From contig NZ_JMKT01000009.1 of assembly GCF_000686525.1 (NCBI RefSeq), positions 372,001 through 436,000 of the forward strand: a stretch of DNA of 64,000 nt, in the 5' to 3' direction. Below are positions 4,310 through 14,360 of this stretch, piece after piece; positions within the stretch are counted from its first letter, which is position 1; every line of letters begins with the position of its first letter. The translations under genes were made by a program, and so were the position numbers. The notes beneath the pieces were generated by a model. The model did not search any database and was not told where the DNA came from. It saw nothing but the letters and a program-made list of their open reading frames with translations. This stretch comes from Desulfonatronovibrio hydrogenovorans DSM 9292. Its GTDB lineage: Bacteria; Desulfobacterota; Desulfovibrionia; Desulfovibrionales; Desulfonatronovibrionaceae.

Positions 4310-4370
4310 ACTATCGGCAAGAGTCCGGCACCGCCATCATCCGCCTGTGGCCTGCATTGCCTTGTTAGCG
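4310..4370 (-). other. Degenerate attC-like site at the 3' end of the DUF523 gene
   Basis: On the plus strand GTTAGCG (4364-4370) resembles the GTTRRRY core. The inverted arms GGCAA (4316-4320) and TTGCC (4357-4361) enclose a GC-rich imperfect hairpin. The expected left core RYYYAAC is not recognisable. The DUF523 protein reads into this element and ends NKAMQATGG, unlike its family. I infer a decayed recombination site; chance similarity is not excluded. Confidence 0.35.
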
Positions 4371-4828
4371 TCAGCCAGCTCGTGCTGGCTGAATACTTGA
4401 ACCCCGCACCGGCGTAACAAAGCAGCTGCAACCCCGATCCCGGAAACCTTTCTGCCTGAAAAACCGCCATCATAAATAAAAGAACTTCCGCAGGAAGGAC
4501 TGAACTCTGCAAGCACTGCGATTTCAATTTTAAACTTGCTGCATAGGTCCAAAGCTATGGAGGCACCATCCAGGAAGGCGCGGGTCACAACTATTCCTCC
4601 CTGTTCAATAACATTTGCCTTGCCATTTAAGACATCATCTCCATTGCCCTTATAAATTTCAGCTGGCAGTCTGGGAATGCTCATTCCAGCTTCAACTTCA
4701 GGACAAACAGAAACAACTCGTCCCTCAGACAGCCAGTGATCAATAATCTGGCCGGTCAGAGCAAGGCTTCCACCATCATACCTGACTTTTTCCCCTAAAA
4801 GACAGGAACTCATTAATACTTTTTTCAA
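4337..4828 (-). CDS. DUF523 family protein
   Basis: A 163-residue protein that begins MKKVLMSSCLLGEKVRYDGG, the hallmark start of DUF523, and carries the conserved VCPEVEAGM and LAEFSPSCGS blocks with cysteines at fixed positions. The family is widespread in anaerobes and its role is unknown; the cysteines suggest metal or thiol chemistry, which is inference. The start is TTG at 4828, supported by GGAG five bases upstream and by family alignment, rather than the internal ATG at 4813. The C-terminus NKAMQATGG appears to be encoded by an attC-like sequence rather than by the native gene. Confidence 0.85.
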   Translation of the reverse strand: MKKVLMSSCLLGEKVRYDGGSLALTGQIIDHWLSEGRVVSVCPEVEAGMSIPRLPAEIYKGNGDDVLNGKANVIEQGGIVVTRAFLDGASIALDLCSKFKIEIAVLAEFSPSCGSSFIYDGGFSGRKVSGIGVAAALLRRCGVQVFSQHELADANKAMQATGG

Positions 4829-5283
4829 CTTACTCCAGAATATAAGATAGTTGTCCTGGCATCAAACCAGTTGAGTCCTTACAGGTTCTACGCTCCAACC
4901 CGGCTAAGGCATCAGCGCCGGACCCTGGAGCGATCCTGGTCAGGGATGCATCTATCTAGCTGTATGCGGCTTTGGCCAGTCTCTGGGCGCCAGGACACAA
5001 GCTAATGGTACCGGGCTGGTTTACGGAATTTTAAAAAACATTCCCATATATTTTTCCAGTAAATGTTTAACTGTCTCTGGTTATCCATGTCAACTCAGCC
5101 CCTGTCAAAATTTATATTTTCCAACCTGTTAGAAAAACCTGAACTCATTTTCTCCCAAATGAAAACATAGCAGTCTGACAGGGGAAATTCATGACCTTTA
5201 CCCGGGACAAGGCTTTCCAGGCCTGGTCACCATGATCAAAAAGAGTCTCTGACCCGGAATAAATTGCAAGTTAGAGATAAATA
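4829..5283. other. Intergenic region with hairpin and a copy of the integron promoter block
   Basis: No convincing gene in 455 bases. It holds a GC-rich inverted repeat at 4891-4932 (outer arms CGCTCCA and TGGAGCG, inner arms CCGGC and GCCGG), attC-like in shape but without good core sites. It also holds the diverged copy (5022-5126) of the block that lies between attI and intI. The rest shows nothing I can name. Confidence 0.5.
5022..5126 (-). repeat. Diverged copy A of the attI-adjacent Pc block
   Basis: Colinear with copy B at 12672-12777: ACGGAATT (5023-5030), ATATTTTTCCA (5048-5058), TGTCAACTCA (5088-5097) and ATATTTTCCAAC (5114-5125) occur in the same order and nearly the same spacing, with only single-base indels. 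By eye roughly 70% of bases match. On the minus strand the shared TGAGTTGACA supplies a TTGACA -35 box with TTAAAC 17 bases on, pointing leftward into the DUF523 gene. I read it as a relic or second Pc/attI region. The similarity is seen; the interpretation is inferred. Confidence 0.65.
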
Positions 5284-7116: not shown

Positions 7117-7173
7117 GCATAACGGTGCGCTAACCAGCCGGCTCTGCCGGTCTGGTTGGGCGCCATGTTAAAC
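7117..7173 (-). other. attC site of the mazEF cassette (array's last)
   Basis: Plus strand GCATAAC (7117-7123) and GTTAAAC (7167-7173) are the cores. Between them lies a strong imperfect hairpin: GCGC, TAACCA and CCGGC pair with GCCGG, TGGTT and GGCGC around a TCT loop. At 57 bases it has typical attC length. The left core has one mismatch to RYYYAAC. Confidence 0.75.
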
Positions 7174-7180
7174 GTTTTTA

Positions 7181-7315
7181 TTAGCTTACTTCCTTCAGGT
7201 TACCCGTGACATATTTATGTAAGATACTGGTTATCAGGGTTTGATATGGAATTCCTTTTTCCATTGCCTTGGTTTTTAGTGCTTCTATATCACGTGCGGA
7301 CGACAAAAACGTAAC
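7181..7315 (-). pseudogene. Fragment of a CopG-type antitoxin gene
   Basis: Read by hand on the minus strand between mazF and attC. The 44-codon open stretch ends in a stop at 7181 and contains SSARDIEALKTKAMEKGIPY followed by QTLITSILHKYVTGNL. This matches the C-terminal half of the CopG-like antitoxins (PF12441 type) that normally begin with an RVTIRLS strand. Here VTFLSS is preceded directly by an in-frame TAG, and no upstream frame supplies the missing N-terminus or a partner toxin. I infer a broken remnant of a second toxin-antitoxin module in the same cassette. It could instead be expressed as a short orphan if initiation occurs at a rare codon. Confidence 0.65.
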
Positions 7316-7349
7316 CTATGTTGGTACACTGGAATGTCTGGTTGGCCTA

Positions 7350-7685
7350 TTAATAAATACAAGCATCCAATATCGACAGGACTTCAGACAATAGCTCATC
7401 GTTCCGTCGCTGGATGCGTTTAACACGACGGGCATGGAAATCAACTGATTTCACTTGCTCAACCATGACGAAACCGGTCAACTTGCTTGCTTTTGGAATA
7501 GGTACATGGAAAGGAAATCCGCGATCTGTATTTGTAATAGGACATACAATAGCCAAACCTGTGCTGCTATTGAACAGATCCTTGCTGACGACCAACGCCG
7601 GACGGCGTCCTTTTTGTTCATGACCAGCTTGCGGATCAAAAGTAATGGCAATCAAGTCTCCTTGTTCGGGAATATAGATTGCCAT
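7350..7685 (-). CDS. mazF: MazF/PemK family mRNA-interferase toxin
   Basis: A 111-residue protein of normal MazF length. It starts MAIYIPEQGDLIAITFDPQA and has the family block GHEQKGRRPALVVSK, followed by the CPITN strand and the MVEQVKSVDF segment that form the RNA-binding face. MazF toxins cleave mRNA at short motifs to arrest growth until neutralised by MazE. Its ATG immediately follows the mazE stop codon (TAAATG), so translation is coupled. It sits in an integron cassette, where toxin-antitoxin pairs are thought to stabilise arrays against deletion. Confidence 0.94.
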   Translation of the reverse strand: MAIYIPEQGDLIAITFDPQAGHEQKGRRPALVVSKDLFNSSTGLAIVCPITNTDRGFPFHVPIPKASKLTGFVMVEQVKSVDFHARRVKRIQRRNDELLSEVLSILDACIY

Positions 7686-7934
7686 TTACCAGACCTCTTT
7701 TCCGGCTGGTTTCCCCCAATCTGTTTCTTTAGTTTGGTAACCTTTGGGAATTTTCGCCACAAGATCCTTGAGATTATATTTTCTTCGGGTTCTCTGGGCT
7801 GGGGTGACGATTAAGGCACCATCTTTTACAGTGACATTGACGTCATCGCCTACATTTATTTGTGCGTCTGATAGTAATGTCTTTGTAATACGGAGACCTT
7901 GGCTGTTCCCCCATTTTTGAATTTTTGCAAGCAT
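7686..7934 (-). CDS. mazE: MazE family antitoxin (AbrB/SpoVT DNA-binding fold)
   Basis: An 82-residue protein. The N-terminus MLAKIQKWGNSQGLRITK is the SpoVT/AbrB swapped-hairpin DNA-binding domain of MazE antitoxins; the charged C-terminal tail (TKETDWGKPAGKEVW) is the expected toxin-binding segment. It binds MazF and represses the shared promoter. I start at the ATG at 7934, preceded by GGAGG at suitable spacing, rather than the TTG five codons upstream, which would overlap that site. The next gene, mazF, begins at the following base. Confidence 0.93.
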   Translation of the reverse strand: MLAKIQKWGNSQGLRITKTLLSDAQINVGDDVNVTVKDGALIVTPAQRTRRKYNLKDLVAKIPKGYQTKETDWGKPAGKEVW

Positions 7935-7950
7935 ATGATCACCTCCCAAT

Positions 7951-7989
7951 GTATATCCGAAGTATATACACCTGCAATTTGAGGGTCAA
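7951..7989 (-). promoter_or_regulatory. mazEF promoter and likely operator
   Basis: On the minus strand TTGACC (7984-7989) is followed 17 bases on by TATACT (7961-7966), a near-consensus promoter within the cassette. An interrupted palindrome, GTATAT and ATATAC (7951-7956, 7964-7969), overlaps the -10 box and is a reasonable MazE operator. Cassette-borne promoters are usual for toxin-antitoxin cassettes. Confidence 0.7.
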
Positions 7990-7999
7990 GGTTTTTTCA

Positions 8000-8061
8000 G
8001 GCCAACGCCCAGCTCACCGGTAAATTGGGAGCGCCAGCGACTGAGGCAGTCCATGTTAGGC
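8000..8061 (-). other. attC site between cassettes 5 and 6
   Basis: Plus strand GGCCAAC (8000-8006) and GTTAGGC (8055-8061) form the cores, 62 bases overall. The right core is perfect and the left has a mismatch at the second base. The inner part, AACGCCCAGCTCACCGG onward, resembles other attC sequences but its hairpin is weaker than those of the neighbours. Confidence 0.65.
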
Positions 8062-8765
8062 GCTTTGTTCGGCTCTTGATCACTTTCTCGGCTTCCAATA
8101 ACCTGGTTTCCGATGCAGATTCATCTTTCATGGGTCGGACCTAACCATCATCCTTAAATATCAGGATAAACCCAGTGAAATCTCTTACTATTTCACCGGG
8201 GTATGCCATACATGATCAGGTAAAAAAAATCTGTTGGCTCTGGGCATATTTGCTTACAACTGGTTTTTGAGCATTGAAATGGGCGTTCTAAGGCCAATTA
8301 TAGACTCTATAGAAGATATTTATACAATCAACTCAATAACTTGATAGGTCCGACCCCATAAGAGACAAGAGACTTGAGAAACTTGTGTTGTTAACACGCC
8401 ACTTCTTCCTTTACACTAGGACGACAGGTTCTCATGTTCCGTACTAAAGCCTGCCCTGAATTCATGCCACCTCCATGCCGGCTGCCGCTTCGCCCGTAGC
8501 CAAATATCGTCGAAACTTGTCCCGGAAATACGCTCGTTCCCCGGTTTTGACAGCATTTATCCATATCGACACCTCATCAGTGGTTCATTTGCATTCATCT
8601 CTTCAGGCCGTACCTGACAGATTCATTTCTGCCTTTTCCCTATCACTCACGACAACTACTCTTAATAATTGCCGCATAGGGCGGTTTGGTTCCAGTATCT
8701 GGATACCGAAACCGAGGGGCCTACCCTCATCTTTAATACAGCTAGGAAGACTATTGTCTTCCGTC
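8062..8765. other. Cassette 5: no convincing protein gene
   Basis: About 700 bases flanked by attC sites. Minus-strand frames are short, the longest recognisably protein-like one being a 40-codon stretch ending near 8463. A plus-strand frame (8475-8915) exists but runs into the antisense of the methyltransferase gene and has no ribosome site. The DNA between 8380 and 8700 is GC-balanced and looks non-random, so it may be a decayed gene, a non-coding RNA or a truncated retroelement. I could not identify it. Confidence 0.5.
8131..8356. repeat. 12-bp inverted repeat pair, REPIN- or MITE-like
   Basis: GGGTCGGACCTA (8132-8143) and its exact complement TAGGTCCGACCC (8345-8356) bracket about 200 AT-rich bases in cassette 5. 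Each arm is itself nearly palindromic (GGTCGGACC). This resembles paired REP sequences or ends of a tiny element; no transposase is present. Confidence 0.45.
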
Positions 8766-8816
8766 ATGACACACGAGCGCAGCGGAATTGCCGTCCATTG
8801 CAGCGCCTTGTTAGCC
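8766..8816 (-). other. Degenerate attC of the methyltransferase cassette
   Basis: The right core GTTAGCC (8810-8816) overlaps the methyltransferase stop codon, as expected of a cassette. GAGCGCAGCGG and GCAGCGCC form an imperfect palindrome to its left. The crossover core near 8766 (CATGACAC) does not fit RYYYAAC, so the site may be inactive, which would fuse cassettes 4 and 5. Confidence 0.45.
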
Positions 8817-9368
8817 CTTTTTCAATATCACTGTCTTATGAAAGAGCATGTTCGGTCCATTAGTATCAACAAACCCTACACTTCTGGCTTTTTTGATAGT
8901 TTCTTCAAACGCTGATTTTGAAACATGAAATGGAGGCTCAACTATGAGGACTTGTCCTTTTGGTCTTAGTATTGACCATATCTCATTAAAAAGCCCTTCC
9001 TTGTTTGGAATCTCGTGAACGACATAAAATAATAAAACAAAATCAACATGATTTGATACGCCTATTTTATTCTCTTCGCATTTGTGGAGTTTAATTCGCG
9101 CCTCAAGTTCTGTGCCGTTTATCTTATCTCTTACCTTTTCAAGCATTCCTTCCTGCATGTCGCAAGCAATCACTTGACCCGATTTGCCAGCCATGAGAGC
9201 CATATCTACCGAGAAAAAGCCCGGGCCACATCCTACTTCAAGAACTGTCATTCCCTCTTTTATATAAGGTCGTAGTATTTTCTGAGGATTTTGGAACCAC
9301 CTCCGAATTCTATTATCAAGACTGCCCGCTCTTTCAACCGGGCATACACGATTACCTCTATCACTCAT
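8811..9368 (-). CDS. Class I SAM-dependent methyltransferase (integron cassette 4)
   Basis: A 185-residue protein. SAM-binding motif I is VLEVGCGPGFFSVDMA (about residues 44-59); an acidic residue at the end of the next strand (VIACDMQEGML) and DFVLLFYVVHEIP complete the Rossmann methyltransferase pattern, closest to the UbiE/Methyltransf_11 group. Substrate unknown. The longer open frame begins inside attC; I start at the ATG at 9368 because AAGGAG lies nine bases upstream and the domain begins just after. The stop codon lies in the attC core, typical of a cassette gene. Confidence 0.88.
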   Translation of the reverse strand: MSDRGNRVCPVERAGSLDNRIRRWFQNPQKILRPYIKEGMTVLEVGCGPGFFSVDMALMAGKSGQVIACDMQEGMLEKVRDKINGTELEARIKLHKCEENKIGVSNHVDFVLLFYVVHEIPNKEGLFNEIWSILRPKGQVLIVEPPFHVSKSAFEETIKKARSVGFVDTNGPNMLFHKTVILKKG

Positions 9369-9388
9369 TTCATTTTTCTCCTTATATG

Positions 9389-9450
9389 GGTTAACGCGGG
9401 GCGTGAGCCGCGGCTGCGAAGCAGCCGTCGCGTTCCACGCCTTTGTTAGG
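9389..9450 (-). other. attC site between cassettes 3 and 4
   Basis: Plus strand GGTTAAC (9389-9395) and GTTAGGC (9444-9450). The 62-base interval folds as nested arms (GCGGGGCGTG with CGCGTTCCACGC, then CGGCTGC with GCAGCCG around GAA), the strongest palindrome of the set. The right core is perfect, the left has one mismatch. Confidence 0.85.
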
Positions 9451-9509
9451 CCCGTCTTTATCCACCGTAGCATCGAGACCGCGTGATGACATCATAAGGA
9501 GACACCAGC

Positions 9510-10283
9510 CTACCTAACACAGTCTGTTTGCAGCGGATCAGTGCAAGTAGGCAGCAGATGATTGCGACGGCGAGACGTCTCTTCCAGTTCAACCAGAACG
9601 TGTTTTTCCAGTGCAGTGAGGGCCAGGAACACGTGCTGAAGCCTGTTCTGTCCATATTCTGACTGAACCAGATAGTCGGAGAAATCCCCAAAAGAGATGT
9701 CACCGGACCTTTCCTCAACAGGAGAATACGCGCGTAGGGCCTCTACAAGCTCCGGCAGACCGGACCGTCGACTGAAGTGGGCCATATCGTCCTTCATCTT
9801 GGCCGACAGAGTTCCGGAGTGGATAGAGGCAAACTCATCAAGAGCGGCAGCGGCGTCCACGAATGCATCCGCGGATGAGGCGGAGAATTGGTGCGCTTCC
9901 GAGCATGGCTTGTTGATAAACCTCTGAATCAGCTCGTCGCTTGACAAGACTGGAGTTCGATCAAAGGATGATGGTGGCATGCATAACAAATGCTTTTTCA
10001 ATGATTCAATTGAAGTGTCGACCCGCTGCAAGACCAAGTTCTGAGCCGTCAGCTGAGCCAATGCTTCAGAGTTTTCCTTTGAACTGGTCAAGATTACCTG
10101 CGCGATCGCGATTACGGCAGCAAGGGCAACAACCCCGAACTGCGATGCCCCCACCTTCGTGAGCCGCTTGTTCTCTGTCGCGGGGCCCAGCATTGCAAGC
10201 GCGGCTGCTGCGGCAGTAAGCAGCGCCGCTATGACCGCAAGCGCAGAGCCCAAGCCAACCCCTAGAAAATAAAATTCTTGCAT
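9510..10283 (-). CDS. Two-TM membrane protein of unknown function (integron cassette 3)
   Basis: A 257-residue protein with two N-terminal hydrophobic segments (about residues 5-33 and 46-66), so anchored in the inner membrane with a roughly 190-residue soluble domain. That domain is mostly helical by composition, rich in Ala, Ser and Leu, with no motif I recognise. I start at the ATG at 10283, which has AGGTGG upstream, three codons inside the longest frame. It is a single-gene cassette bounded by two good attC sites. Its size and topology would suit an effector of a defence or stress module, but nothing in the sequence proves that. Confidence 0.75.
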   Translation of the reverse strand: MQEFYFLGVGLGSALAVIAALLTAAAAALAMLGPATENKRLTKVGASQFGVVALAAVIAIAQVILTSSKENSEALAQLTAQNLVLQRVDTSIESLKKHLLCMPPSSFDRTPVLSSDELIQRFINKPCSEAHQFSASSADAFVDAAAALDEFASIHSGTLSAKMKDDMAHFSRRSGLPELVEALRAYSPVEERSGDISFGDFSDYLVQSEYGQNRLQHVFLALTALEKHVLVELEETSRRRNHLLPTCTDPLQTDCVR

Positions 10284-10337
10284 TCTAACCACCTAATAGC
10301 GCAAGCCATTTGTTTTGGTGATGGGGCATGATCGGTT

Positions 10338-10415
10338 GCCTAACGCCGGCCATAAACGGCCGAGTGAAACGAGGTCCGGCGACCGAAGGGAGCGAATTCA
10401 ATGGCTTTGTTATGG
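10338..10415 (-). other. attC site between cassettes 2 and 3
   Basis: Plus strand GCCTAAC (10338-10344, perfect RYYYAAC) and GTTATGG (10409-10415). The 78 bases contain the paired arms GCCGGCCATAAACGG and CCGGCGACC plus the outer GCC/GGC. It starts two bases beyond the stop codon of the cassette-2 gene. Confidence 0.85.
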
Positions 10416-10416
10416 C

Positions 10417-11157
10417 TCACTTCTGGATTCTCGGAGACAGCTTTTCGATTTCTTCATTAACATGCTTCTTTAGCATTCCGAATGGAGCAGGTAAATCCCT
10501 GGCGGGAACCTGTGGTTCGGCCATATTCATAACATGAAAGCGCCAAATTGAAGTGCTAATATTATTGTGCAGTCCCATTAAAGCCAGCAATGATTCTGGC
10601 GATCTTGCTTCTAAAAACAAGCTTTTAGGCACAGAAATACGTTCTTTTCCAGACCCATTGTATAGCTTTGTGAAAAAACGAGAGATCGTATCATTTGACG
10701 GAGGACGTGAAACCTTTAAAAGATTGTCCCGGAATCCACAAAGTATCACTAAGTCTGTATAAAAGTATCTAACACTAAAATCCTGAGCTGCATCGATTTC
10801 AATCAAAATCACGCCGCCACCGACCCCTTCACCATATGGAGAAAGTTCCAAACCAAAATATTTAATCTGGTCAATAGTCGGTCTCAATATTCGCTTATGA
10901 ATATTCCAGTTAGTAGTGCCAGCCCCCTTCATTACCGTTTTAAGCTGTGTTTTTACGACCAGGTCGTGGTCGTCGAAAATCATATCGAATCCATCCTGAT
11001 CAACTTCAGGAAGGTAAACGTTAAGAAAGTAACCCCGATTTGCAGCTGCAAGCTTAAGATCAAATAGAAGTTTGTTATTTATAAGTGATTCTTTTCCATG
11101 GCTATTTGATGCATCAAAAAAGAATCTTTCCAACTGTGATCTGTTATTAGGACTCAA
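10417..11157 (-). CDS. PD-(D/E)xK-nuclease-like protein (integron cassette 2)
   Basis: A 246-residue protein with no close family that I recognise. The N-terminal half has Asp58 in DGFDMIF and, 13 residues on, the TQLK segment (Gln71, Lys73). The order acidic residue, short strand pair, then Q-x-K after a strand fits a PD-(D/E)xK fold with Gln replacing Glu, as in DUF4365-type proteins. A preceding helix with conserved-looking acidic residues also fits. The C-terminal half is unassigned. Start is TTG at 11157 with AGGTGG nearby; no ATG lies upstream. Nuclease activity is a hypothesis only. Confidence 0.65.
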   Translation of the reverse strand: MSPNNRSQLERFFFDASNSHGKESLINNKLLFDLKLAAANRGYFLNVYLPEVDQDGFDMIFDDHDLVVKTQLKTVMKGAGTTNWNIHKRILRPTIDQIKYFGLELSPYGEGVGGGVILIEIDAAQDFSVRYFYTDLVILCGFRDNLLKVSRPPSNDTISRFFTKLYNGSGKERISVPKSLFLEARSPESLLALMGLHNNISTSIWRFHVMNMAEPQVPARDLPAPFGMLKKHVNEEIEKLSPRIQK

Positions 11158-11302
11158 TGCTCCACCTGGTGTTTTTCAATCTAGTTGCCACCATCATCCA
11201 TAACGCTTCGTTAATGTGCGCCACTTGCGAAAAATAAACCTGGCACCATTCTCTGTACATATTGTTAATACTATTTCCATTAGTAAAAATGCTTCTTTTG
11301 TT

Positions 11303-11365
11303 GCCTAACGCCCGGCTTAACCGGCGCCGGCTTTGCCGGCGTCCGTGTTGAAGCCGTTGTTAGAT
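11303..11365 (-). other. attC site between cassettes 1 and 2
   Basis: Plus strand GCCTAAC (11303-11309) and GTTAGAT (11359-11365), both perfect matches to the consensus cores. Between them CGGCTT/AAGCCG and the inner CGCCGGC/GCCGGCG around TTT form the usual long hairpin. It begins six bases after the stop codon of the winged-helix gene. Confidence 0.93.
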
Positions 11366-11371
11366 GCCATT

Positions 11372-11893
11372 TCAACGGCGCAGCGATAGAAGATGCTTCA
11401 CGCCGTCCTGAGATACTCGTTTGTAGGAAATCTTGCTCGGTTTTCGGGTTTGAAAGATCAGCTTCTTGCGCTCGATTTGTTTTAAAGTCGACGATGCATT
11501 GGAGAGCTTTATTCCGTGATCGGACAGAAACTTCGTAACTTCAGAGGTCTTAAACTCATTCCCTTCCGACTTGCTTTGTACAAAGTATGCAGTGATGAGG
11601 GCCTTTTCCTGATCAGATATATCGTCTCTGAACGAGTGGAGCCATTCCCCAAAAACTTCGGGTACATTGAGCGAGCCGGCCTGTTCGTCAGTCTCTGAAT
11701 TGACACTGGAGGCTTCATTAACAGGTTCTTCCAACGGCTGACCGCTATTTGCCTGTGCGGCGGCGGGCGCACGTCCGATCGTGGCAAGCAGCTCTTCCAA
11801 ATTGGCTAGTTGCTCTGTAACAAAAGCCTCAGAGCCTTCGAGCCGAATCTCCCCACTGTTTAGATTGATACTAACGACTGCTTTTTCCGACAT
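11372..11893 (-). CDS. Winged-helix partner protein of the HEPN-like gene (integron cassette 1)
   Basis: A 173-residue protein in three parts. Residues 1-37 hold a short strand-rich block, VVSINLNSGEIRLEGSEAFV; residues 40-75 are a low-complexity linker rich in Ala, Glu and Ser; residues 95-170 look like a winged helix (ALITAYFVQ, TSEVTKFLSDHGIKL, then a basic hairpin). That C-terminal domain resembles the N-terminal domain of the upstream HEPN-like protein, so the two are probably functionally linked. Eleven bases separate the genes and no attC lies between them, making a two-gene cassette. The basic end suggests nucleic-acid binding; function unknown. Confidence 0.75.
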   Translation of the reverse strand: MSEKAVVSINLNSGEIRLEGSEAFVTEQLANLEELLATIGRAPAAAQANSGQPLEEPVNEASSVNSETDEQAGSLNVPEVFGEWLHSFRDDISDQEKALITAYFVQSKSEGNEFKTSEVTKFLSDHGIKLSNASSTLKQIERKKLIFQTRKPSKISYKRVSQDGVKHLLSLRR

Positions 11894-11904
11894 TATCTAC
11901 TCCC

Positions 11905-12636
11905 TTATCTCAGTATGCCTGCTTTGTAGAGCAACTCTTCGATACAGGCACGATAATCCTGCTTAACTGCCTGCAAATCTGCACGCTTTGCGTTGTAGTG
12001 GATCTTGTGAGCTGAGAAATTGCCCAGCGTTCGGAATATTTCCAAACAGGTCTTCGTGTTTCTCGATAGTGCCAACGTTTGATTTACAGACGCATTCGAC
12101 ACTATTGCCTGTAGCAATTTATAGTTTCCATCGCTGTCTTTAATTTCAGATGCGATCCCTAATTTCTCGTAAGAAAGGATTAAACAAATCTCCAATAGTC
12201 TACGCATAAGTACTGCGCATCCATCAAAGATATTGCTCTCATAAGATGCATTTATTTGATCAGCGAGCTTTTCAATGTAACCACGCGTTGAGCGGTACAA
12301 AGACTCTGGCAGCACTTCCTCATCATGTAGAATTTCTTCCGACTTTGATCCTACAGTCGGAAGTTGGCTTTGTATTTCTCGAAGTTTTGTTGCGTGAATC
12401 TTGAATGAGCCTGGTGATCCGCCATTTACAAAAGCGCGCTCCTGACGCATCCGCTTAGCTAAGCGCGACTGATTTGGACGAGAAAAGTGTAATTCTTCGA
12501 ATAGCGCAGTCAAATCAGCTACGGAAACTGCCGACCGGCCCCGATCTTTCAACAAGTAGTAGCTCAAGTATAGGCTCTTCTGAAGCTCTGTCTTGGACTC
12601 AAGGTCGGCCATTTCAGAAAATTGCTGCAAGTTCAT
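11905..12636 (-). CDS. wHTH-HEPN (DUF4145-like) protein, first gene of cassette 1
   Basis: A 243-residue protein. Residues 15-90 look like a winged-helix domain (YLSYYLLKDRG, VADLTALFEELHF, RLAKRMRQERAF). Residues 110-240 resemble the HEPN-like DUF4145 domain: FDGCAVLMRRLLEICLIL is the usual long helix, and FRTLGNFSAH gives the R-x2-G-N-x3-H signature (Arg202, His210). HEPN proteins are often RNases or helper subunits in toxin-antitoxin, abortive-infection and CRISPR systems. As the first gene after attI it would be driven by Pc. Domain calls are by eye; activity is inferred. Confidence 0.72.
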   Translation of the reverse strand: MNLQQFSEMADLESKTELQKSLYLSYYLLKDRGRSAVSVADLTALFEELHFSRPNQSRLAKRMRQERAFVNGGSPGSFKIHATKLREIQSQLPTVGSKSEEILHDEEVLPESLYRSTRGYIEKLADQINASYESNIFDGCAVLMRRLLEICLILSYEKLGIASEIKDSDGNYKLLQAIVSNASVNQTLALSRNTKTCLEIFRTLGNFSAHKIHYNAKRADLQAVKQDYRACIEELLYKAGILR

Positions 12637-12654
12637 CGACTGATCTCATCTGGC

Positions 12655-12661
12655 ATCTAAC
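12655..12661 (-). other. attI crossover core
   Basis: Plus strand ATCTAAC (minus strand GTTAGAT, a perfect GTTRRRY) lies between the first cassette gene and intI. The same GTTAGATGCC string recurs in the first attC at 11359, consistent with cassette 1 having been joined here. Recombination would fall between bases 12660 and 12661. Confidence 0.8.
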
Positions 12662-12671
12662 AATGTTATTA

Positions 12672-12777
12672 TACGGAATTCAAAAAAAATACTCTTACAT
12701 ATTTTTCCAAAAATTAATTAACAATTTCTTGTATTTTCTGTCAACTCAATCCCTTATCAAAAATCATATTTTCCAAC
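12672..12777 (-). repeat. Copy B of the attI-adjacent block
   Basis: AT-rich block between attI and intI that shares ACGGAATT (12673), ATATTTTTCCA (12699), TGTCAACTCA (12739) and ATATTTTCCAAC (12766) with copy A at 5022-5126 in the same order and spacing. It contains the Pc candidate. Confidence 0.65.
12716..12744 (-). promoter_or_regulatory. Candidate cassette promoter Pc
   Basis: On the minus strand TTGACA (12739-12744) is followed after 17 bases by TTAATT (12716-12721), pointing through attI into cassette 1. The -35 box is perfect and lies in the segment conserved with copy A; the -10 is weak. A TATAAT at 12668-12673 nearer attI could be an alternative -10 but lacks a good -35. Confidence 0.5.
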
Positions 12778-12805
12778 ACATTAAAATGACGAAACTATTT
12801 GCGCC

Positions 12806-12895
12806 TTGACGACCAGGTCAGCTTTATGCTTATATTGAGGTTATCCTTATGCAGCAGTGGCCTAAAAGCCCTGTAATTTTGAGCATAAAGCTGAC
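12806..12895 (+). promoter_or_regulatory. intI promoter candidate with 14-bp inverted repeat
   Basis: TTGACG (12806-12811) and TATATT (12831-12836) are 19 bases apart on the plus strand. The spacer contains GTCAGCTTTATGCT (12817-12830), whose exact complement AGCATAAAGCTGAC lies at 12882-12895, just before the preferred intI start. The pair looks like a bipartite operator or a 5'-leader structure. No LexA-type box was recognised. Confidence 0.45.
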
Positions 12896-12908
12896 TTCGG
12901 AGCTACCC

Positions 12909-14360
12909 ATGGATGAAACTGTGATTATTTTTGACGACTGGGAAAAGGTCTTGAAAGCCAGTGTTCCTCCAGATCGTTACCGAGCATATCGGGAAGCCAT
13001 AGTCAAATTCCGGTACTGGCTCCGGAAAACCGGCAAATCACCACATGCTGCCATCTTTAAGCAGCACCTGGCCTGGAAGAAATCTTATCTTGCCCCTGAC
13101 ATCTTTATGATCCGGCAGGAAGCGTTGCGCTGGTATTATCTGGAAGGTCGCAAGCGTACGCTGGAAGGGGCATCATCGTCTGGAATAACAGAAGCCGGTG
13201 TTGATAATCATGCTTCAAGGTCAAGCTATACACCTGACAATGAAACAAATCCGGTTCAACCTCCCTATACAAAGAAACATTCAACAGGAATCACCCCAAA
13301 GGTCGGTGAATATCGTGTATATTCCAGGAATAACCTGCCCGGGCCAGCAGCACCTGATCTTGGTGGGCCGGAATGGGAGCAGAAATTGGTCAGGCGCCTT
13401 CGGGAAAAGAATATGGCCTGGAACAGTGAGAAAACGTATCGATCATGGTGCAGGCGGTTCATCATGTCGGTTGACGCCAAGCCTCTTGCTGAGCTGGATC
13501 ACCATGATGTCCGCCTCTGGTTGTCCGACTTGGCCGTCAAAGAGAGTGTTGCCGCAGCTACTCAGGCTCAGGCGTTAAATGCCGTGGTTTTCTTCTTTCG
13601 TGAAGTATTGCAGCGCGATCCCGGAGACTTCAGTGATTTTTCCAGAGCGCGGCGCGGTCGAAAGATACCCAGCGTCCTGTCGCCAGGCGAATGCAAAAGA
13701 CTTTTTAATGCCATGGACGGAACCTATCGCCTTATGGCTGAACTGATGTACGCGGCCGGGTTACGATTATCCGAACTTTTGCGGCTGCGGGTCAAGGACG
13801 TGGACCTGGAACGCCTCCAGCTTGCCGTACAGTTTGGCAAGGGGAACAAGAGCAGGTACACCATGATTCCACCTCAGCTTGTGCAGCGGTTGCAAAAGCA
13901 TCGTGAACGGCTGCGGATCCTGCACAAAAAAGATCGTCAGGCCGCTCTGGCAGGCGTTGAACTGCCTGGAGCGCTGGAACGCAAGTGGCCCAGAGCCGGG
14001 GAAAAATTCACCTGGTTCTGGTTCTGGCCTTCGCGCAATCTGATGCGGGACCATCGCCACGGAATCATCCGTAGACACCATGTGCTGGATGCGACGTTTC
14101 AGAAAGCAATCCGCATGGCCGCAAACAGGGCACAGATTGATAAACGCGTCACGCCGCACACCCTGCGCCACAGCTTTGCAACCCATCTTCTGGCCAGCGG
14201 AACCGGGATCCGGGACCTGCAGGATCTGCTGGGCCATGCAGACATCTCCACAACCCAGATCTATCTGCACACCGCCAAACAGACCGGTATCGGCGTGCGC
14301 AGCCCGTTTGAGCTGCTTGCAGATCATCCCGGCTCCCAGAATGATGACCAAGCTCATTAG
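12909..14360 (+). CDS. intI: Integron integrase (IntI) with an extra N-terminal domain
   Basis: Tyrosine recombinase of 483 residues from this ATG, against about 320-340 for ordinary IntI. Counting from the longer frame at 12849, catalytic residues are Arg306 (AAGLRLSE), Lys331/334 (GKGNK), His437-x2-Arg440 (PHTLRHSF), His463 (LLGHAD) and Tyr472 (IYLH). The IntI-specific insert is clear at about 369-410 (LPGALERKWP to GIIRRHH), as is GVRSPFELL at the end. A normal core-binding domain spans 173-260; residues 29-100 look like a second, degenerate one (DWEKVLKASVPPDRYRAYRE), joined by a linker. It recombines attI and attC. I prefer the ATG at 12909 (GGAG upstream, beyond the promoter); 12849 is possible. 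Confidence 0.93.
   Translation: MDETVIIFDDWEKVLKASVPPDRYRAYREAIVKFRYWLRKTGKSPHAAIFKQHLAWKKSYLAPDIFMIRQEALRWYYLEGRKRTLEGASSSGITEAGVDNHASRSSYTPDNETNPVQPPYTKKHSTGITPKVGEYRVYSRNNLPGPAAPDLGGPEWEQKLVRRLREKNMAWNSEKTYRSWCRRFIMSVDAKPLAELDHHDVRLWLSDLAVKESVAAATQAQALNAVVFFFREVLQRDPGDFSDFSRARRGRKIPSVLSPGECKRLFNAMDGTYRLMAELMYAAGLRLSELLRLRVKDVDLERLQLAVQFGKGNKSRYTMIPPQLVQRLQKHRERLRILHKKDRQAALAGVELPGALERKWPRAGEKFTWFWFWPSRNLMRDHRHGIIRRHHVLDATFQKAIRMAANRAQIDKRVTPHTLRHSFATHLLASGTGIRDLQDLLGHADISTTQIYLHTAKQTGIGVRSPFELLADHPGSQNDDQAH

Follow-up and report, generated by a model that had tools for sequence, protein, structure and literature searches.

An integron in its textbook form consists of one integrase and one adjacent attI site. 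Sedentary chromosomal integrons combine a TIGR02249-type integrase (IntI), a divergent array, a G|TT crossover in attI, and attC hairpins with cassettes encoding toxin-antitoxin pairs and uncharacterized proteins. More than one integrase is found in 20-22% of intI-bearing genomes, and in one survey a third of the intI genes were pseudogenes (PMC9024848, PMC2426708). Clusters of attC sites lacking integrases (CALINs), in which attC cassettes lie without a working intI beside them (PMC9024848, PMC8618304), occur widely. How they arise is disputed, with off-target insertion in trans, loss of intI, and rearrangement among the proposals (PMC8618304). In class 1/2 integrons, additional attI sequence recombined by IntI is found past the primary site in Delta-attI cassettes, which are attI pieces of 14-18 nt (or 244 nt) that replace attC in mobile arrays (PMC12901181). 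The subject of this analysis is the integron in a 64,000-nt stretch of the genome of Desulfonatronovibrio hydrogenovorans DSM 9292 (the window), together with the copies of its attI site elsewhere in the same 2.94-Mb genome and in related genomes.

A sequence-only reading of the window had proposed a chromosomal integron with an attI core beside an IntI-type integrase. Both points were borne out: in this Desulfovibrionales genome, IntI scored 364 bits against TIGR02249 (cut-off, 265 bits; profile search), attC sites were confirmed, and the attI core was confirmed by comparison with related loci, which diverged exactly at the G|TT crossover. That reading missed the multiple copies of attI and its leader, mainly outside the window, as well as the intron and element relics of "cassette 5." Comparison of these copies points to a functional-looking chromosomal integron of unusual layout, whose integrase probably acts in trans to capture cassettes at attI sites spread over the chromosome.

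Scattered attI leaders and their cassettes

The attI core TGAATTCCGTATAATAACATTG lay at 12661-12682 on the minus strand, with the crossover between 12661 (G) and 12660 (TT), where the sequence continued as TGAATTCCGTATAATAACATTG|TTAG; an attI with a G|TTRRRY crossover thus adjoined intI, as in other integrons. Between intI and attI was a leader of ~190 bp reaching back to the intI start (12664-12897, minus strand), a putative cassette promoter region with repeats, whose sequence was conserved across an alignment of 26 attI loci from related genomes. Its repeats (GCATAARGMTRACCT; named GCATAAAGCTGACCT in connection with the N-terminal domain of IntI) occurred in direct orientation at 12852 and 12829 and as an inverted copy at 12897, and a promoter match, TTGACA-17-TTAATT, was judged by eye. 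Leaders of the Verrucomicrobiota type contained echoes of GCATAARGMTRACCT, namely GCATAAAGCCTAC and TAGGCTTTATG.

A search with a leader query that excluded the crossover recovered five additional copies in the genome (C9:44852, C12:169703, C2:4188, C2:5719, and 5022-5125 in the window), giving six leaders with the copy beside intI, four of them with a recognizable core. The additional copy in the window, a degenerate second attI leader on the minus strand, past the array and upstream of a DUF523 gene, was 73.6% identical over 106 nt (E = 3e-11) and had lost its core. The pattern TGARTTCCGKATAATAACA, with two mismatches allowed, matched 31 times in 61 genomes, compared with 5 matches for the reversed control, and a leader was present at 27 of the 31 matches, spread across ten genomes of the order with 1-6 attI cores each (G025 had six and G033 five). 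Same-order relatives matched contigs labelled Desulfonatronum sp. and Desulfovibrionales bacterium. Up to six leaders per genome were present in the Desulfonatronum-type relatives, most of which had at most one integrase; an integrase above the family cut-off was found in 9 of the 61 genomes and in none of G025, G020, G045, G049, and G052. Upstream of most attI copies lay the 5' part of intI, frameshifted or truncated; a few copies had none, and one locus (L105) contained a 338-aa intI pseudogene.

When 29 leaders were placed in a tree, those from this genome all shared a clade (100/100) with the G004 and G037 copies, and a separate clade contained the copies of Desulfonatronum type; moreover, two G033 copies were 95% identical over 800 bp. 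This clustering and the G033 pair speak for an origin of the copies by duplication within lineages. The possibility that leader units are themselves cassettes was considered and rejected; their outer ends were irregular, at distances varying from -143 to -802, and had no GTTRRRY core. Verrucomicrobia/Lentisphaerae-type attI cores (CAATAACACTGTT) resembled the Desulfovibrionales cores, and leader pairs were 85-97% alike within each of three genomes of this type. In a Verrucomicrobia and a Lentisphaerae metagenome-assembled genome (MAG; L110 and L111), 1.5 kb of intI and leader was 96.8% identical and the first attI cassettes differed.

Nearly all attI copies had NTGTT at the crossover followed by unrelated sequence, with the first open reading frame (ORF) mostly beginning within 40 nt; nearly every copy had a different gene after the G|TT crossover, usually with an attC downstream. 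The attC sites were sought with two covariance models, R1, derived from 10 clinical class 1 plasmid attCs and containing no window sequence, and R2, derived from 26 attCs, none of them from the window. R1 detected 12 attCs near twenty other attI copies, and all 12 lay downstream and on the attI strand; the same was true of 36 of the 36 attCs that R2 detected at attI-bearing loci, about half of which had supplied sites to that model. Many of the cassette genes belonged to nuclease, toxin-antitoxin, or abortive-infection-like classes, the first genes behind attI including DUF4145/HEPN, AbiV, KAP NTPase, RES, PIN, RNase T, NYN, ART-like, and ParE types. At four loci in two genomes (L082, L094, L105, and L083), the palindrome TTCCCGCGACGC..GCGTCGCGGGAAC lay directly after the attI crossover as the first ORF-less unit. 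A RAYT-like transposase was located near the attI at C9:44852 (L056:9526-10373).

Cassette exchange at loci without an integrase

Orthologous attI loci without an integrase differed in their cassettes. One such locus, G025a/G049a, was 95.7% identical over 1.1 kb (from -1112) up to the crossover; past it, the two sequences were unrelated for 0.85-1.7 kb and then 94-97% identical again. The common upstream flank contained only a broken intI stub with the same truncation in both genomes, and since the cassettes behind it differ, exchange followed the loss of intI. In the second pair, G045c and G029b, the upstream sequence was 90% identical over 1.2 kb, with no trace of intI within 1.5 kb. Shared sequence restarted 1,362 bp past the crossover in G045c and at base 2 in G029b, where attI was joined straight to the shared next gene. 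The surplus in G045c amounted to exactly two cassettes, each complete with its attC (L132:1937-2014 and 2521-2592); the one in second position was a HicBA pair. Judged by these junctions, the two loci are the occupied and the empty state of an attI in nature. An integrase of the same type is still encoded at another locus of G029.

Because orthologous integrase-less attI loci differ in their cassettes, IntI most likely exchanges cassettes in trans. In the proposed mechanism, a single IntI, extended by an N-terminal domain, is encoded next to an attI with a short array, copies of attI and the leader are scattered over the chromosome, and IntI would act in trans to capture cassettes at these sites. 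Several small arrays per genome would result, every one of them starting with an attI and a leader of its own. An IntI of this type would have carried out such exchange in the past and may still do so in this genome; the leader would drive cassette expression, and the extra domain may bind the attI repeats. Such a layout suggests one enzyme serving many docking sites, and different cassette genes could then occupy first positions, one after each leader, which would relax the restriction of integrons to a single promoter. A broader proposal, to which we give even chances, is a multi-centred integron, in which an integrase clade with an added DNA-binding domain acts in trans on a family of attI platforms. 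These platforms would increase in number within the chromosome and provide it with several docks that can be loaded independently, in Desulfovibrionales and in Verrucomicrobiota/Kiritimatiellota-type bacteria.

Several observations weigh against capture in trans. G025, G045, and G049 have no integrase above the family cut-off today; their cassettes may therefore have been exchanged in the past or by a transient integrase. The full attI core was kept in two of the five extra copies of the present genome, and over all five, by our own count, the core was no better conserved than the leader. In addition, the motif search was biased towards conserved cores, and several of the compared genomes were MAGs. 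Selective preservation of the core in every copy of this genome was also considered; with two copies keeping it fully and no overall excess, it is not claimed.

The 5' remnants of intI, interrupted by stops, that accompany most copies and the pseudogene at L105 would suit an ordinary chromosomal integron in which the remaining attI copies are relics of several former integrons, with intI decayed in place and capture limited to the time when it was intact; pseudogenes and duplicates of intI are documented as frequent (PMC2426708). This account is unlikely, since the same stub, at 96% identity, stood before different cassettes in G025a and G049a, which places exchange after truncation, since the flank common to G045c and G029b was free of intI, and since leaders clustering within lineages favour copying. 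Gene conversion could also occur between leader copies that are 70-98% identical and carry a -10-like TATAAT, and the leaders might then be a repeated promoter element whose attached genes are not cassettes, with the locus differences arising by homologous recombination between leaders. Divergence exactly at the G|TT crossover and the correctly oriented downstream attCs argue against such an element, and the G045c insert was flanked on both sides by attI and attC cores, unlike the products of homologous recombination; the promoter-element explanation is very improbable. The chance that the window array is an accidental run of hairpins beside a phage-type integrase is negligible. A strict IUPAC search for RYYYAAC...GTTRRRY pairs did flag attC1 alone in the array; this search was too strict and was replaced by the covariance models. 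Accidental hairpins are refuted by the two independent models and their strand specificity, and the opening ten bases of cassette 1, GTTAGATGCC, were the exact complement of the R'' box of its own attC, GGCATCTAAC.

Integrase, array, and relics in the window

The intI gene (12909-14360, plus strand) encodes a 483-aa integron integrase with an intact catalytic core and points away from the attI core and the minus-strand array. It is the sole full-length integron integrase in the genome, the remaining matches being short and Xer-type. ATG 12909 is the most likely start and was preferred over ATG 12849 on account of the MD..IxFDDWE motif conserved in relatives. IntI was 67-80% identical to seven aligned relatives, in which the start was conserved, and its nearest solved structure was IntI4 (2a3v, 3.5e-60). 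The IntI-specific insert LERKWPRAGEKF..WFWPSR..RRHH and the catalytic residues R-K-H-R-H-Y were invariant in eight relatives. The enzyme would recombine attI with attC, as the comparison of orthologous loci suggests.

The first ~90 residues of IntI (12909-13178, plus strand) formed an extra N-terminal domain that was common to all close relatives and absent from ordinary IntI. Four helices were predicted by AlphaFold for the domain alone (pLDDT, 87.6); the full-length model was of low confidence (pLDDT, 62), and only the domain model was used. A Pfam search with the domain gave no match, and Foldseek returned mostly tyrosine recombinase core-binding domains, weakly (E >= 0.5). These matches were not significant, so a second core-binding domain is put forward as a proposal only. 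Of 395 genomes of the phylum, one contained the domain; integrases that carry it, at 65-68% identity, were found in Verrucomicrobia, Lentisphaerae, and similar MAGs.

Five cassettes of the array bore genes; 1, 2, 3, and 6 were complete, and the attC of cassette 4 was broken. The sixth unit was a relic without an ORF. Applied to both strands of the window, R1 gave just four matches at E <= 10 (11303-11365, 7117-7173, 9389-9451, and 8762-8816), all on the minus (cassette) strand, and R2 matched attC1, attC3, attC6, and attC2 and no other site. The sites attC1 (11303-11365; R1, 21.3 bits; R2, 36.6 bits, E = 1.2e-6), attC3 (9389-9451; R2, 33.9 bits, E = 6e-6; also an R1 match), and attC6 (7117-7173; R1, 18.1 bits; R2, 24.5 bits, E = 1.3e-3) were confirmed, and attC2 (10338-10416; R2, 15.3 bits, E = 0.27 in 64 kb; structure scan) was supported. 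All were on the minus strand, as were attC4, a half-site with R''-L''-L' only (R'' at 8810-8816; R1, 10.6 bits at 8762-8816), and attC5 (8000-8073), a degenerate candidate from the structure scan with a weak R1 score of 8.3 bits. The attC sites folded, shared one orientation, and stood at cassette ends in both models, as in integrons generally. Complementarity between R'' and the cassette start is what cassette circularization demands. Elsewhere in the window, the DUF523 gene terminus ANKAMQATGG, encoded by GCTAACAAGGCAATGCAGGCC (4337-4380), looked like an attC left half; neither an R' nor a model match was found, and an attC is not claimed there.

All cassettes lay on the minus strand. Cassette 1 (11309-12660) contained two ORFs, at 11905-12636 (243 aa), with a weak DUF4145-like Pfam match in the C-terminal half of its product, and at 11372-11893 (173 aa), winged-helix-like by eye; homologues at 29-43% were present in 10 other genomes of the phylum. 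The ORF of cassette 2 (10344-11308; ORF 10417-11157, 246 aa) looked like a PD-(D/E)XK nuclease by motif, with a weak phmmer match to the PD-(D/E)XK endonuclease 2ost (E = 0.61), and that of cassette 3 (9395-10343; ORF 9510-10292, 260 aa) had a hydrophobic N-terminal stretch; neither protein matched a Pfam family. Cassette 4 (8775-9394) encoded a class I methyltransferase (8811-9368; Pfam Methyltransf_31, 3.8e-17), and cassette 6 (7123-8005) encoded mazE (7686-7949; Pfam MazE, 2.5e-7) and mazF/pemK (7350-7685; PemK, 1.4e-27). Comparison of the cassette proteins with PADLOC, plasmids, and PDB gave nothing firm.

Other claims of the sequence-only reading can be set against these data. Its six minus-strand cassettes held for the five with genes and failed for "cassette 5"; its five or six attCs were upheld for attC1, attC3, attC6, and, with support, attC2, and reduced to a half-site and a weak candidate for attC4 and attC5. 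The covariance-model check it had suggested located sites at 11303, 10338, and 9389. Its statement that most stops lie near the attC right core was fair, the stop-to-R'' gaps being 7, 2, 59, and 177 nt in cassettes 1, 2, 3, and 6, with an overlap of 5 nt in cassette 4. It had placed cassettes 1-3 in no recognized family, and apart from the DUF4145-like match of the first gene this agreed with the lack of NCBIfam and PADLOC matches for their proteins. It had also named a gene order kept without intI in relatives as grounds for doubt. Such a case was not encountered: in a same-genus genome the neighbouring nifS-ubiB-trpB block was kept with neither intI nor cassettes beside it.

"Cassette 5" has no gene because an intron relic and an inverted-end element occupy the region. 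The 5' relic of a group II intron (8360-8774, minus strand; RF01999, 109.9 bits at 8612-8728; 5' GTGTG at 8774) replaced the R' box of attC4 in the orientation of the cassettes, with the junction GCGCTC|GTGTG. It was cut short by a short element with the inverted ends ATGGGTCGGACCTA and TAGGTCCGACCCCAT (8130-8359), of which three more partial copies occurred elsewhere in the genome. Group IIC-attC introns, likewise group II introns at attC sites, lie antisense to the cassettes at TTGT/T of the attC bottom strand, with one same-orientation group IIC case cited (PMC7923331); the present relic, in contrast, is truncated, lies in the orientation of the cassettes, and has neither the antisense placement nor the TTGT/T site.

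Comparison with described integrons

No report of full attI leaders scattered in a chromosome, each heading cassettes and with exchange after intI loss, was found in the open-licence literature. The search was limited to such papers, so novelty is provisional; provisionally, the multi-attI layout is new and the window array itself is of a familiar integron kind. The integron shares the features given above for sedentary chromosomal integrons and differs from them in having several copies of attI and leader, many small arrays rather than one, dissimilar attCs, and an IntI with an added N-terminal domain. Nor does it resemble a superintegron with a large array and nearly identical attCs, having at most six sites, unlike in length and sequence. 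The additional attI sequences recall Delta-attI cassettes, whereas here full leaders head separate chromosomal arrays and have no cassette-type outer boundary.

The scattered loci share with CALINs their attC cassettes without a nearby working intI. They differ in that each starts with a recognizable attI and leader, which is not part of the CALIN definition; IntegronFinder seeks attI only for class 1 and not elsewhere. A classic CALIN, three same-strand attCs without a recognizable attI leader, is present in the same genome (L059 6453-8221; G000:C10:98452-100220). The integrase-less arrays described here keep a recognizable attI, and sister genomes show cassette gain and loss after the loss of intI; with a known attI sequence and such turnover, the question of CALIN origin becomes directly testable.

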